The notes beneath the pieces are model-generated. The model was not told where the DNA came from. It saw only the letters and a program-made list of their open reading frames with translations, and made no database searches. A DNA stretch of 45,628 bases. Origin: Actinomycetota bacterium (GTDB taxonomy: Bacteria; Actinomycetota; Actinomycetes; Nanopelagicales; Nanopelagicaceae). The stretch is taken from NCBI GenBank assembly GCA_009726135.1, contig WLIQ01000007.1, forward strand, positions 1 to 45,628, in the 5' to 3' direction. Of the stretch, positions 1,684 to 7,540 are shown in pieces. Every line of letters starts with the position of its first letter. Position 1 is the stretch's first letter. Made by a program: the position numbers and the translations under genes.

Positions 1684-3960
1684 ATGGCAACTTGGATAGT
1701 ACGTGCGGGCTCCGAAGATCAGTATCTAGACGAGTGCCTTAATTCGGGCGTAGTTGCAATTGGCTGGAAAGAAGTGCGGGGTCAAATACCCATCAAAGAT
1801 GTTGAGTTCAACGACATCTATCACAAACTCCAAGAGATTTATTCAGCCGATAGTAATCACACTATTGGCGCTTACACGTCTCAGATTCATGCATTTGCAA
1901 ACAAAATCTATGGTGGCGATTTTGTACTGATTCCTAGTGGTAAAGGTAAAAGAATCAGTATCGGATATCTCCTTGGCGAGATAGATCAAGAACCCGCCAA
2001 TGAAAGTCTTTTAGCTACCCGCAAGGTTCTCTGGTTAGTCAAGGAAGCAGAGAGACAAGAGTTTCTCGACCAAGTTAAGGGCACTTCCGCTTTCGAAAAT
2101 CCACGGACAGTAATACAAACAGCCATAAATCATCAGGATATTAGAAAGTATGTTGAGAAGAAAACTGCATCGAACTTTTGGCAAATACTTGGCAATGCAG
2201 GAATCAACTCCTGGGTTTTTCAATCAAATCCGTCTAAATGGAGTTTATTAGACGCAATTGAAAAGAATGTAAATAATGATTGGGCTGCAAATCAAAACAG
2301 AGAGAAAATGAAGATTGGTGATTTGATCATTTTTCGCCAGTCAGAACCTAACTCGGGAGTTTATGCCGTAGGCCATCTAATGAAGGAACCAGTGAACCGA
2401 GGGGAGAACATCTTCGGAGAGTGGGGAGTTGTTATTTCTTTCGACTACAAAGTTGACGAACCTTTGTTGAAAGCTGAGATAGTAGCTAATAAAGACCTAG
2501 CAAGTATTACGCAAATTAACGGTTTACAAGGATCGAATTTCAGTATGCCCAACGAAACGGCACAACTGCTTCTGAAGTACCTAGAACCCCGATTAAAAGT
2601 AATTGATCCTAAACAAACAACAGAAATTCAATATTGGTGGTGCAATGTTGGCGTTACCAAGAAGCCAGCAATCGCAACAGGAACTTTATGGGCTCACGCA
2701 GCATCAAAAAATGGTGCAGTTTTGACACACCACACCGATATGAAAAAGATTAAAAAAGGTGACTTAATCCTTTTGTATGCAGACACAAAGGTTGTAGCCA
2801 TTGGTGCCTGTACGGTTGAAAGCATAGATTCCACAAGGCCGGCGGAATACCCTGACAAGATTTCATCTCCAGAAGATGACTCTCTAGTCCCAGGGTTTGT
2901 AGTTAGGGCTGACTTTAAGGAGTTTGAAACCCCAATACCTTTCAAAGAACTAGAAAGTGATTTGCGTTCTCTTGTAGATGAAAAGGGGCCTCTTGCAGTA
3001 AGTGGCGGGATAAAGATGGGCTATTTGTTTCCATTGAGTAGGGAGTTTGGCGAAAAGTTTGTTGAAAGATTTGGCAACACCGGGGTAGTGCGTGGAGGAG
3101 AAGTGAATATGGAGAATGTAATGAAGGACGAATCTATGAATGCTCTAGCTCGCAAGCTACTTGTACCAGAAGAATGGTTGACAGAAGTGGTAGGGCAGAT
3201 CACTCAGTCCAAGCAAGTCATCTTCTACGGTCCACCTGGAACTGGAAAAACATTTATCGGGAAGGCTATCGCTGAGCATTTAGCATCAAAAGAAAACACC
3301 GAGATCATTCAGTTCCACCCGTCATTTTCCTACGAAGACTTCTTCGAAGGTTTCAGGCCGGCCGAAAAAGCGGATGGCTCTGTTTCGCTAGAAAAAGTCG
3401 ATGGACCTTTAAAAAGAATTGCAGCAGCAGCTCGCTCAAACCCAAACAAAAAATACGTCCTTATAATTGATGAAATCAATCGCGGAAATCTTGCGAAGGT
3501 ATTCGGTGAGCTTTATTTTCTCCTTGAATATCGTGATGAGGAGATCTCTTTAATGTATTCCAAAACTGAAAAGTTCTCCCTCCCATCAAATTTGATATTT
3601 ATTGGCACGATGAACACGGCTGATCGATCAATCGCATTGGTCGATAGTGCCATTAGAAGGCGATTTAAATTCATACACCTTGACCCAACTTCAGAACCTT
3701 GCTCACAGATACTTCCGAAGTGGCTACAAGAAAACAAACTTCCAGCTGTTGCTGGAGCAATTCTTGAAAACCTAAATAACGCCTTGGCCAAGTATGAATT
3801 TTCCGTAGGCCCCGCCTACTTCATGAAAGATAAGAATCAGTCACGGGAAAATTTGGAGCTAACCTGGAAATATTCGATAGAGCCGTTATTGGAGGAATAT
3901 TTCTACGGGGAATGGGCAGAGAAACATAACGAATTTTCATTCGACAAGATTCATCCGTAA
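1684..3960 (+). CDS. McrB-like GTPase/AAA+ subunit with three N-terminal sensor-type domains
   Basis: The C-terminal half is an AAA+ domain of McrB type: Walker A GPPGTGKT at 516-523, Walker B LIIDE at 593-597, and the McrB hallmark MNTADRS at 643-649 followed by the arginine run RRRF. Upstream lie three stretches that look like EVE/PUA-fold modified-base binders: residues 1-100 (WIVRAG...VAIGW, as at the N-terminus of some Mrr-type enzymes), about 163-299 (GDLIIFR...VYAVGHL and a GSNF tail, a good EVE match), and about 317-470 (WWCNVG...GDLILLY, ending with GIKMGYLFPL). McrB makes the ring that drives McrC cleavage of modified DNA. The mcrC-like gene follows 14 bases downstream. The McrB call is sure; the exact domain names in the N-terminal half are inferred from pattern. 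Confidence 0.9.
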   Translation: MATWIVRAGSEDQYLDECLNSGVVAIGWKEVRGQIPIKDVEFNDIYHKLQEIYSADSNHTIGAYTSQIHAFANKIYGGDFVLIPSGKGKRISIGYLLGEIDQEPANESLLATRKVLWLVKEAERQEFLDQVKGTSAFENPRTVIQTAINHQDIRKYVEKKTASNFWQILGNAGINSWVFQSNPSKWSLLDAIEKNVNNDWAANQNREKMKIGDLIIFRQSEPNSGVYAVGHLMKEPVNRGENIFGEWGVVISFDYKVDEPLLKAEIVANKDLASITQINGLQGSNFSMPNETAQLLLKYLEPRLKVIDPKQTTEIQYWWCNVGVTKKPAIATGTLWAHAASKNGAVLTHHTDMKKIKKGDLILLYADTKVVAIGACTVESIDSTRPAEYPDKISSPEDDSLVPGFVVRADFKEFETPIPFKELESDLRSLVDEKGPLAVSGGIKMGYLFPLSREFGEKFVERFGNTGVVRGGEVNMENVMKDESMNALARKLLVPEEWLTEVVGQITQSKQVIFYGPPGTGKTFIGKAIAEHLASKENTEIIQFHPSFSYEDFFEGFRPAEKADGSVSLEKVDGPLKRIAAAARSNPNKKYVLIIDEINRGNLAKVFGELYFLLEYRDEEISLMYSKTEKFSLPSNLIFIGTMNTADRSIALVDSAIRRRFKFIHLDPTSEPCSQILPKWLQENKLPAVAGAILENLNNALAKYEFSVGPAYFMKDKNQSRENLELTWKYSIEPLLEEYFYGEWAEKHNEFSFDKIHP

Positions 3961-3974
3961 GAACCAAGAAAAAT

Positions 3975-5153
3975 ATGCCAAGCACTGAATCGATTACAAA
4001 CTTCTCGTTGTCTGAATACGAGGAGCGAATCGTTGAAGTCTTAGATGCTGAAATAGCTCAAAAGATCCAGAGAACGGGAATCGTAGAGCTCAGTCGAAAA
4101 GTTTCAGGCGAATTCGTAATTAAGGCTGACAGTAAAGTTGGGTTTATCTCGGTCCAAGGAGTGCAAGTAAATGTTGCTCCTCGTTTCCCTATTTACAACA
4201 TCTTCTATTTCTTAGGACTATTGGAAGAGATGAAGCTGGATAGCGAAAAAGTACAAATATCAGAAAGCAATGATTTCCTGACCGTTCTTTTTCAAAGCTT
4301 TATTCATAGCGTTACCTCTTCGACGCGGAAAGGTCTAATAAGTGGATATGTGAACCGTGAAGATTCCTTACAGGTTCTAAGGGGGAGAATCGATTTTTCA
4401 CGGCAATTAAAAAAGAATCCTGGAAATTACTTTCCTTTTGAAGTTACATTTGATGACTTCATTGAAGATGTACCCGAAAATCAGATTCTAAAGAAGGCCT
4501 TGCTTATATCGCTCAAGTACGGGTTACAAAATCGGAATTTAAGAAATCAAGCTCAGAACTTGCTTTTCAATTTCAAGGACGTGTCAGACATCAGCGAGGT
4601 TCCAGCTTGGAATGAATCAAGATTAAATAGTCACTATTGGAATGCACTTCGGCTCGCTGAGTTAATAATTAGCGGAAATGGATTCCATGAAAATACTGGG
4701 GATATCCAGATTAATGGATTTAGTATCGATATGTACAAGGTGTTTGAGGATTTCGTGGCAAAACAATTGGCAGAGCGAATTAACGGTTCAGATGACCTAG
4801 TAGCAACTCAAAAGAGTTTGTTACTCGATGTTGGAGGTATTTATCGAGAAAAGCCAGACCTAATTTGGTATCGGCAAGGTAAGCCATTTCAGGTTTTGGA
4901 TACAAAGTACAAACAACCTGAAGGGGAAACCCAGCAGAGGGACTCCTTGAATGACCTGCGGCAGGTTATTAGTTATGCCTCCTTACTTGGCCTGAAAGAA
5001 GCCCATATTGTTTATGGAGTAGCCGGCAATGCACGATCGATTGAGACTCGGCAAGAAGGGATAACGGTTTATACCCACGGATTAGATCTTGGGAAGTCAC
5101 CTTTAGAAATTGAGAATCAGCTTGATGCTTTAGTCAGCAGTTTAAATAGCTAA
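3975..5153 (+). CDS. mcrC: McrC-like nuclease subunit of a type IV restriction system
   Basis: The 392-residue product has McrC family layout: an N-terminal beta-rich part that binds the McrB ring (QGVQVNVAPRFPI around 55-68), a central helical part with the LRGRIDF motif near residue 138, and a C-terminal PD-(D/E)xK nuclease. The nuclease residues are visible as Asp295 in KPDLIW, Asp309 and Lys311 in DTKYK, followed by a conserved YASLL helix. The gene starts 14 bases after the mcrB-like stop, with only a weak ribosome-binding site, consistent with coupling. Partner and operon position agree: this is the endonuclease that cuts DNA bearing modified bases. Confidence 0.9.
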   Translation: MPSTESITNFSLSEYEERIVEVLDAEIAQKIQRTGIVELSRKVSGEFVIKADSKVGFISVQGVQVNVAPRFPIYNIFYFLGLLEEMKLDSEKVQISESNDFLTVLFQSFIHSVTSSTRKGLISGYVNREDSLQVLRGRIDFSRQLKKNPGNYFPFEVTFDDFIEDVPENQILKKALLISLKYGLQNRNLRNQAQNLLFNFKDVSDISEVPAWNESRLNSHYWNALRLAELIISGNGFHENTGDIQINGFSIDMYKVFEDFVAKQLAERINGSDDLVATQKSLLLDVGGIYREKPDLIWYRQGKPFQVLDTKYKQPEGETQQRDSLNDLRQVISYASLLGLKEAHIVYGVAGNARSIETRQEGITVYTHGLDLGKSPLEIENQLDALVSSLNS

Positions 5154-5215: not shown

Positions 5216-7360
5216 ATGGATCCGAATAAGTCTCTAGCAAAGACTCACCCTAAAATTGCCAAGGAAGCCCATGGCTGGAATCCAGCAGAAGTGTTGCCGG
5301 GGACCGGCAAGAAGTTTGAATGGATATGCTCAAAAAAACATGTTTGGGTGGAAAGCTGCAATTCACGCACTAACCCAAATAGATCAGAAAATGCTGGCTG
5401 TCCTTATTGCAAAGGCGTAAAAGTTCTGAAGGGATACAACGACCTTAAAACTAAAAACCCGACACTTGCTAAGGAAGCGGATGGATGGGACCCATCTGAA
5501 TTTCTTGCAGGGAGCCATAAGAAAGTTAAATGGAAATGTAGAAAAGGTCATAAATGGGAAGCTGAACTTAGGACTCGTTCAGTTAATGGATATGGTTGCC
5601 CTTTCTGTTCTGGTCTGAAGCCAATAGTTGGGGAAACGGATCTTGCTTCAACACATCCCGAAGTTGCCAAAGAAGCCGATGGATGGGATCCAACAACTGT
5701 AAAAAAAGCTTCGAACAAGAAATTAAAATGGAAATGCAAACTTGGTCATAACTGGATGGCATCTCCTGGCGAAAGAATCTCAGGTACGCGAAGTGGTAAA
5801 CCAAATGGATGCCCATTTTGTTCAGGACAGAGACTTCTGAAAGGTTTTAATGATTTAAAAACCATCAACCCTTCGGTTGCAAAGGAAGCACATAAATGGG
5901 ATCCAAGCACTCTCACTTCAGGAGCGAGTATAAAAAAGAAGTGGAAATGTAAAGAAGGCCATATCTGGGATGCAATGGTTTACAGCAGAAAAACCACTGG
6001 ATGCCCCTTTTGCTCTGGAAGAAAAGCAATAAAAGGAGCAAATGATTTGAAAACAATCAATCCCAAATTAGCTCGAGAACTTCACTCCGGTGATGCAACA
6101 AAACTTAAGGCTTCAAGCCACGTTAAAGTTGAATGGAAATGCAATAAGGGTCATATCTGGAAAGCACTAGTAGCAGATAGAACTCGAGGAGATGGTTGTC
6201 CGACGTGTTCTGGTAAGAAACTACTGGTTGGCTTTAACGATTTGGCAACTACTCATCCAGAAATTGCGGCGCAAGCTTCCGGCTGGGATCCTAAAAAAAT
6301 AGGAAAAGGCAGCATTAAACCTTTAAAGTGGGTCTGTTCAGAAGGTCACCAGTGGCAAAGCAGCCCTAATTCAAGAATTAGTGGAACGAGAAGTGGAAAA
6401 CCTAATAGTTGCCCCATTTGCTCGGGCCATAAACTTCAAAAAGGATTCAACGATCTAGCTACCACACACCCTGATATCGCTGCACAAGCTTTTGGTTGGG
6501 ATCCATCGACAGTTCAGGCAGGTTCTCACGGAACTTTTGTTTGGAAATGCAACAAAGGACATACATTTAATGGTCAGGTTTACAACCGCATCACTAGATC
6601 CAGCGGACCTAACTGTCCTGTTTGCTCGAATCGAATAGTAGAGACAGGGTTTAATGACATTGCCACAACCCATCCACAATTAGCAGCTGAAGCTAATGGA
6701 TGGGATACGACCAAAGTAACTGCAGGAACGAATGTTCGTCTTGAATGGCGATGCCGCCTTGGCCATATTTGGAAGGCAACGGGTAACGGCAGAATTCAAG
6801 GAAATGGCTGTCCTGTTTGTGCAAATAAAGTAATAGTCGTTGGGTTTAATGATTTAGCAACTACCCATCCAGACCTGGCTTCCCAAATGGTTAGTGGAGA
6901 CCCAACGAAGGTCACCGCAGGAAGTGGTAAGAACTTTAAATGGAAATGCGAAAAAGGCCATACATGGAATGCTGATGTTGCAAACCGTTCTACAAGAACA
7001 GGTTGTCCATCCTGTGCTGTTGGCGGTTTTGATCCAAACATTGAAGCTTGGTTATATTTCTTGATTCACGAAGAATGGGATATGCACCAAATCGGAATCA
7101 CAAATTATCCAGATGACCGGCTCGCTTCACATAGAAGACTTGGATGGAAGTTAATAGAACTTCGTGGTCCAATGCAAGGTGATGTTACATACGCATGGGA
7201 GCAGTCGATCCTCAAAGCTCTTAAGGAAAGTGGCGCAGACATTGGCAATGCTTCAATCGCAGGTAAATTTGACGGGTTTTCAGAAGCATGGGTTCGGAGC
7301 TCCTATCCGGCCAAGAAACTCAAAGACTTAATGGATTTAGTCAGAGCAAGCGAAGATTGA
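5216..7360 (+). CDS. nine-fold zinc-ribbon (DUF4379-like) protein with C-terminal GIY-YIG-like nuclease domain
   Basis: Residues 1-605 are nine tandem units of about 60-70 residues. Each starts with a (N/T)DL..T/K..HP/NP..A stretch and GWDP, followed by W-x-C-x3-H-x-W/F and ending in C-P-x-x-C. This is the pattern of the probable zinc-ribbon family DUF4379 (PF14311), with C-x3-H plus C-x2-C as metal ligands, present in all nine units. Residues 610-714 resemble a GIY-YIG nuclease: LYF at 613-615, QIG at 625-627 followed by ITN, then Arg635 and Glu662 at the places of the catalytic Arg and Glu. Nine ribbons suggest a long DNA or RNA binding arm. It lies directly downstream of mcrC on the same strand. 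The repeat call is sure, the nuclease call is moderate, and the role is unknown. Confidence 0.8.
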   Translation: MDPNKSLAKTHPKIAKEAHGWNPAEVLPGTGKKFEWICSKKHVWVESCNSRTNPNRSENAGCPYCKGVKVLKGYNDLKTKNPTLAKEADGWDPSEFLAGSHKKVKWKCRKGHKWEAELRTRSVNGYGCPFCSGLKPIVGETDLASTHPEVAKEADGWDPTTVKKASNKKLKWKCKLGHNWMASPGERISGTRSGKPNGCPFCSGQRLLKGFNDLKTINPSVAKEAHKWDPSTLTSGASIKKKWKCKEGHIWDAMVYSRKTTGCPFCSGRKAIKGANDLKTINPKLARELHSGDATKLKASSHVKVEWKCNKGHIWKALVADRTRGDGCPTCSGKKLLVGFNDLATTHPEIAAQASGWDPKKIGKGSIKPLKWVCSEGHQWQSSPNSRISGTRSGKPNSCPICSGHKLQKGFNDLATTHPDIAAQAFGWDPSTVQAGSHGTFVWKCNKGHTFNGQVYNRITRSSGPNCPVCSNRIVETGFNDIATTHPQLAAEANGWDTTKVTAGTNVRLEWRCRLGHIWKATGNGRIQGNGCPVCANKVIVVGFNDLATTHPDLASQMVSGDPTKVTAGSGKNFKWKCEKGHTWNADVANRSTRTGCPSCAVGGFDPNIEAWLYFLIHEEWDMHQIGITNYPDDRLASHRRLGWKLIELRGPMQGDVTYAWEQSILKALKESGADIGNASIAGKFDGFSEAWVRSSYPAKKLKDLMDLVRASED

Positions 7361-7448: not shown

Positions 7449-7540
7449 GGAGACGTCGCATAGCCCGGTCGAGTGCGCCTCACTGCTAACGAGGTAAGGG
7501 GTTAAACCCTTCAGGAGTTCAAATCTCCTCGTCTCCGCCA
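7449..7540 (+). tRNA. tRNA-Ser(GCU)
   Basis: The acceptor arms GGAGACG (7449-7455) and CGTCTCC (7530-7536) pair fully. The anticodon loop CTGCTAA carries GCT at 7485-7487. A long variable arm of class II type (AAGGG/CCCTT) is present, the T stem AGGAG/CTCCT is perfect, and the CCA end is encoded at 7538-7540. It separates the defence-type region on its left from the polysaccharide genes on its right. Confidence 0.96.

Follow-up and report, generated by a model that had tools for sequence, protein, structure and literature searches.

The gene that follows mcrC in the 45,628-nucleotide window (the whole stretch of DNA that was analysed, from a small-genome actinobacterium) very probably codes for a homing-type DNA endonuclease, modular and site-specific, which is carried as cargo of a mobile element and is independent of the adjacent mcrBC. 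Its product, referred to here as the array protein, combines nine tandem DUF4379 units with a GIY-YIG-like domain at the C-terminus. The open reading frame starts with ATG, and the features of the locus are compiled in Table 1.

Table 1. Features of the array gene and its surroundings in the window
Feature	Position	Strand	Basis
mcrB homolog (EVE domain and AAA_5), within the same island	1684..3960	+	Pfam
mcrC homolog (PF10117), ending 62 bp before the array gene	3975..5153	+	Pfam
Array endonuclease gene (nine DUF4379 units and GIY-YIG-like tail, 714 aa)	5216..7360	+	Open reading frame and Pfam
DUF4379 unit 1 (aa 1-65)	5216..5410	+	Cys/His pattern and Pfam
DUF4379 unit 2 (aa 66-131)	5411..5608	+	Cys/His pattern and Pfam
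DUF4379 unit 3 (aa 132-202)	5609..5821	+	Cys/His pattern and Pfam
DUF4379 unit 4 (aa 203-266)	5822..6013	+	Cys/His pattern and Pfam
DUF4379 unit 5 (aa 267-331)	6014..6208	+	Cys/His pattern and Pfam
DUF4379 unit 6 (aa 332-402)	6209..6421	+	Cys/His pattern and Pfam
DUF4379 unit 7 (aa 403-470)	6422..6625	+	Cys/His pattern and Pfam
DUF4379 unit 8 (aa 471-535)	6626..6820	+	Cys/His pattern and Pfam
DUF4379 unit 9 (aa 536-600)	6821..7015	+	Cys/His pattern and Pfam; fold matches mt-SAF33
Putative GIY-YIG-like nuclease domain (aa 601-714): Tyr614, Gln625-Ile-Gly, Arg635, His639, Glu662, Glu690	7016..7357	+	Fold model and conservation
tRNA-Ser(gct), right edge of the island	7449..7540	+	tRNA; first 47 bases (7449-7495) repeated on contig C41

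The DUF4379 array

The protein was compared with the Pfam model of DUF4379 (PF14311), which yielded an E-value of 1.1e-95 over nine separate stretches, and a Pfam scan of the genome returned nine DUF4379 matches, every one above the curated cut-off. The C-x3-H and C-x2-C ligands that the preliminary description had claimed for all nine units were found by pattern in 9/9. The nine tandem modules that it had proposed likewise stand; its name for them, zinc ribbons, is only loosely right, because DUF4379 is, according to Pfam, a probable treble clef. Each unit probably binds zinc.

Units 3 and 6 have the insert RISGTRSGKPN in common and are 62% identical. For a broader comparison, 86 units from the array protein and 13 further array proteins were excised by the Cys/His pattern, so that the invariance of the three Cys and the His in this set is by construction; one Pro and one Trp likewise never vary. 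The alternating residues of the second strand (GHxWxAxVxxR) rank among the most variable positions of the 86 units, which fits a DNA-reading face or mere surface exposure alike. Mean unit identity is 45% within a protein and 44% between proteins, with 49% for the last unit across proteins. No tandem repeats were found at the DNA level, and the units are therefore old or diverged. The majority of the units are basic, units 7-9 weakly so, and the tail is net acidic (13 K/R versus 18 D/E). A scan of genome contigs revealed one weak locus only.

In the full-length AlphaFold2 model the units are confident, with a pTM of 0.29 for the whole, and the geometry of the arm is therefore not fixed by this model. 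A phmmer search of the PDB with the whole protein found nothing; the unit profile, in turn, found mt-SAF33 (E 5.5e-4), and structural comparison of the AlphaFold2 model of unit 9 plus the tail with this protein gave Z values of 8-8.7. The predicted structure thus resembles the solved DUF4379 chains. The solved DUF4379 proteins found were trypanosome mitoribosome assembly factors only (mt-SAF33 and another), so the module can serve in ribonucleoprotein complexes. These two proteins, both seen in solved mitoribosome assembly intermediates, would be the precedent for an array that binds RNA or ribosomal particles instead of DNA. Such a role appears very unlikely to us, given that the array is fused to a nuclease domain in an architecture common to phage endonucleases, and that CapR, a related Zn-finger domain, represses the capsid gene of phage ICP1 as a DNA-binding protein (PMC10448857). 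The array presumably binds DNA.

The C-terminal domain

The tail residues named in the preliminary description (LYF 613-615, QIGITN 625-630, Arg635 and Glu662) are present, and its reading of the tail as a GIY-YIG nuclease is supported by the fold, by invariant motif residues and by homology to phage tails that pass the cut-offs of T5orf172 and MUG113. Against the Pfam GIY-YIG model (PF01541), the tail scored 12.5 bits, below the cut-off of 22.6, and it is therefore called GIY-YIG-like here. The predicted structure of the C-terminus was compared with GIY-YIG folds, as had been proposed, using an AlphaFold2 model of unit 9 plus the tail that was built from a 16-sequence alignment and reached a mean pLDDT of 83. 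Residues 72-179 of this model align with Slx1 (Z 5.7), At-HIGLE (5.3), UPF0213 (3.8) and the catalytic domain of I-TevI (3.7), values that are middling, with several independent GIY-YIG entries in agreement, and that support assignment of the predicted tail structure to the GIY-YIG fold.

Across 16 tails from two array types, the invariant residues are Tyr, Gly-Ile, Arg, His, Gly, Glu and a second Glu. They include Tyr614, Arg635 and Glu662, the first Tyr, the Arg and the Glu of GIY-YIG, which probably have a catalytic role. The second Tyr, that of YIG, is absent, with Gln625 here and Lys or Gln in homologs, and the superfamily call therefore rests on the fold and the other residues; Lys at this position is also found in phage T5orf172-type tails. 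The spacing of Tyr614, Gln625, Arg635 and His639 presumably equals that of Y6, Y17, R27 and H31 in I-TevI. There was no direct match between the tail and the T5orf172 or MUG113 Pfam models. An hhalign comparison with the tails of Vibrio phage 424E50-1 and Klebsiella phage pKp383 gave 98% probability, and both of these tails score above the T5orf172 and MUG113 cut-offs. On the evidence of alignment and modelling, the tail is GIY-YIG-like and close to the T5orf172 type, and it would be expected to cleave DNA.

An island at tRNA-Ser(gct)

To the left of tRNA-Ser, the window holds only a protease gene, mcrBC and the array gene, and two genes lie between the tRNA and fprA. In the complete relatives G006 and G021, tRNA-Ser(gct) is also near fprA, crcB-type genes and a pepP-like gene stand to its left, and the site is free of mcrBC and of the array (the names fprA, crcB-type and pepP-like were assigned by reading of the sequences). 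The first 47 bases of tRNA-Ser recur without mismatch at 8410-8456 of contig C41, which belongs to the same genome. This contig carries the left flank that the window lacks, with the pepP-like gene and two more genes; the 47-base copy comes next, and unrelated sequence follows it. Both edges of the island are therefore marked by 47-bp direct repeats of tRNA-Ser, the pattern of tRNA-targeted integration; the gap between the contigs hides the whole extent of the island and its integrase. The array gene is best read as cargo of an integrative element that is inserted at tRNA-Ser(gct).

The unrelated sequence past the repeat on C41 contains a candidate nuclease gene and a helix-turn-helix or excisionase-like ORF, the latter assigned by reading only and free of Pfam matches. 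The candidate nuclease, located inside the tRNA-Ser island at L103 (G000:C41:8200-11277) 428-1807 on the minus strand, has 459 residues, is Cys-rich in the middle and by eye resembles a PD-(D/E)xK nuclease in its C-terminal part, and matches PADLOC PDC-S69 weakly (8e-5).

Relation to the neighbouring McrBC genes

In the mcrB homolog, the AAA domain is preceded by two EVE-domain stretches, and PADLOC PDC-S02 models match the first 130 residues of the protein (1e-20). The array gene lies 62 bp past mcrC on the same strand, with no terminator-like site in the gap, and co-transcription of the two is possible, which by itself proves nothing. Because of its place beside this type IV restriction pair, the array protein had been proposed to be a third McrBC component that acts as effector or sensor, a proposal that we regard as scarcely credible. 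The order survey covered 251 genomes, of which 15 carry DUF4379 and 2 carry McrC; the two coincide in the genome of the array gene alone. No array was seen near the single further mcrBC locus that the order yielded (G097), and no McrC was found near array homologs within the order. Across the 297 genomes of the class survey, McrC is present in 52, DUF4379 in 21 and both in 3, compared with 3.7 expected (Fisher p = 1), and in the other two genomes with both, distances of 966 kb and 572 kb separate array and mcrC. The repeated DUF4379-mcrBC linkage that the neighbourhood survey was to reveal did not emerge: the homologs are, essentially, scattered with no restriction genes nearby, adjacency among the relatives surveyed is confined to the window and co-occurrence is not above that expected. 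A third McrBC component was therefore rejected on the order and class surveys, and since these show no association, the adjacency is best read as two cargo genes in one island. That the array gene stands beside a restriction system looks like chance, and one adjacency is insufficient to call a restriction accessory gene.

Array genes elsewhere in the order

Array genes were found on integrase-bearing segments at tRNA-Leu (G010) and tRNA-Arg (G016), near an integrase in G179, and beside rnpB in G164 and, by homology, in G032 and G084, where an integrase and a Phage_CRI-like replication gene accompany the array gene. The compact rnpB-side element, seen at L071 913-7309, L074 264-6869 and L075 282-6856, comprises a tyrosine integrase, an excisionase-like ORF, a Phage_CRI-like replication protein and the array nuclease, and could be a phage satellite or an integrative plasmid. 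At L073 2147-5204, near an integrase, two tandem array-nuclease genes of one genome have clearly different tails. The first array of G010 (L067 9013-10563, minus strand) consists of six units with C-x5-H instead of C-x3-H and the same GIY-YIG-like tail, and the first ligand spacing is therefore not fixed in the family. It was left out of the unit and tail alignments, as the pattern missed C-x5-H; the motif of the aligned tails is nonetheless present in its own tail.

At the tRNA-Leu site of G047 and the prfB-side site of G058 stands a second type of array, which is weakly similar to CapR and has a related, GIY-YIG-like tail. Each of these two sites is used by both array types, in G010/G047 and G010/G058, respectively. 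Members of this second family, at L083 4310-6115, L084 9271-11448, L085 3627-5093 and L086 8869-9798, carry a PLEPYPGxxxPWKCxCxxCG repeat and a tail with a GGxTET motif, and score below the Pfam cut-offs. At the prfB side, the array gene of G010 takes the place of a Tad pilus operon that is present in the near-identical G014; the operon stands beside prfB in G014, G001 and G003 (L116 4915-9690; L117 1766-6486; L119 3657-8330), and G010 and G058 have a single array-nuclease gene instead. In G005 this site spans 53 bp only and is nearly empty. A defence hotspot beside prfB was accordingly rejected, because three complete relatives hold the Tad operon and G005 is empty; the site is variable rather than a defence island.

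Two genera share one array gene at 99.75% identity over 1.6 kb, in an alignment that begins 140 bp upstream of the gene, with none further upstream, and that joins two draft assemblies, one of which has a contig stopping 100 bp past the gene. In G048, a decayed array remnant lies beside a degenerate second copy of tRNA-Ser. The locus comparisons suggest mobility of the array genes; no clean insertion of a single array gene into an otherwise identical allele was found among them. An intron-borne homing endonuclease gene was also considered and rejected, as Rfam detected no intron families in the window or in seven homologous loci.

Phage and plasmid homologs

The array protein matched 87 phage and 93 plasmid records; several of the phage and plasmid proteins with its architecture are annotated as endonucleases, and 94 matches from a library of viral models fit the fold at E <= 0.001, some of them named T5 Orf172, CapR or GIY-YIG. 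The Klebsiella pKp383 protein has three DUF4379 units plus T5orf172/MUG113 above the cut-off, and the Salmonella SP3 protein has DUF4379, CapR and T5orf172, its gene preceding nrdD. The array of Campylobacter phage CP30A, annotated as a homing endonuclease and encoded between two topoisomerase genes, ends in a Vsr/REase-type tail. The Vibrio 424E50-1 gene lies between tail genes, at a place where the related phage F88 has a transposase. The phage array genes of CP30A, SP3 and 424E50-1 are thus at sites typical for free-standing homing genes. A Rhodococcus plasmid encodes an array of six units with the same kind of tail. The family is best read as one that moves with integrative elements, plasmids and phages and does not depend on mcrBC.

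Proposed function

In the mechanism that we propose, the nine DUF4379 modules, each around a predicted zinc site, would form a beads-on-a-string arm on an extended DNA target, and the GIY-YIG-like domain would nick or cut the DNA at or beside the bound site. Cutting would use Tyr614, Arg635 and His639 together with a metal held by Glu662, and may promote the spread or retention of the gene itself or of its element. Points that speak against this mechanism are the GIY-YIG score below the Pfam cut-off, Gln625 in place of the second Tyr, the net acidic tail, the weak basicity of units 7-9 and the known use of the module in ribonucleoprotein complexes.

The purpose of the cutting could be a different one with the same enzymatic mechanism, namely that a domesticated interference nuclease allows the integrative element to cut the DNA of phages or rival elements, as Odn of ICP1 does against PLE. 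Odn (RepA_N plus T5orf172) is an interference nuclease by experiment (PMC8263062), the array gene lies on an element beside mcrBC, the second candidate nuclease on C41 (weak PDC-S69 match) is in the same island, and arrays recur on integrase-bearing elements. Against this, PADLOC returned no match for the array protein, the sampled array neighbours gave no clear match to a defence family, other arrays are not near known defence genes, and the decayed remnant in G048 fits selfish turnover equally. Interference against phages or rival elements is thus a serious alternative, which we consider possible but on balance unlikely, and cutting that serves the spread of the gene itself is favoured. Further along this line, the zinc-array nucleases of small-genome actinobacteria might be swappable interference weapons, in which DUF4379 and CapR-like arrays with related tails share their chromosomal sites, and the number and sequence of the units would decide the phage or rival element that is cut, as a natural modular DNA-reading code joined to a nuclease. 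We hold this idea to be rather improbable.

With the array protein read as a homing-type nuclease, the Zn-finger-repeat, T5orf172-like homing nucleases extend from phages to bacterial integrative elements. The extension brings arrays of up to nine units and the use of the same sites by two array types, with a divergent tail and a chromosomal integrative-element home. The family is also a practical natural data set on whether DUF4379 modules read DNA modularly.

Comparison with known systems

I-TevI resembles the array protein in its predicted catalytic fold and differs in the second Tyr, which is Gln625 here, in the reversed domain order and in a DNA-binding arm of another type. mt-SAF33 of T. 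brucei has the same zinc module by sequence and fold, in contrast as a single matched unit, in a ribosome assembly particle and with no nuclease. Odn shares with the array protein a GIY-YIG-superfamily nuclease, a separate DNA-binding part, derivation from a homing endonuclease and a mobile genome; it cuts the origin of the satellite (PMC8263062), has RepA_N instead of zinc modules, and its interference role is proven. In phage group II introns, CapR-like/DUF4379-like arrays of three to five Zn modules of ~60 residues precede a C-terminal EDxHD/Vsr-like nuclease and are judged homing endonucleases (PMC12350094). Their nuclease fold differs, and they are intron-borne, whereas no intron RNA was found here.

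The closest known kind is the Zn-finger-repeat homing endonuclease of the T5orf172/CapR type, in which repeated CapR, DUF723 and related Zn-finger domains are arranged as beads on a string, and whose modules are swapped between phages and satellites (PMC10448857). That paper has DUF4397/PF14344 in its text and DUF723/4379 in a legend, and DUF4379 is probably the domain meant. As in this class, the array protein has repeated Zn modules of ~60 residues N-terminal to a GIY-YIG-superfamily nuclease at one end, and is modular, subject to shuffling and located on mobile DNA. It also matches Vibrio phage MW824372, whose T5orf172 homing endonuclease gene is drawn there (PMC10448857), a likeness at the level of the phage. 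It is set apart by its bacterial chromosome or integrative element, its nine units and a tail too divergent for the T5orf172 Pfam model. Within these differences, the array protein fits the T5orf172/CapR class.
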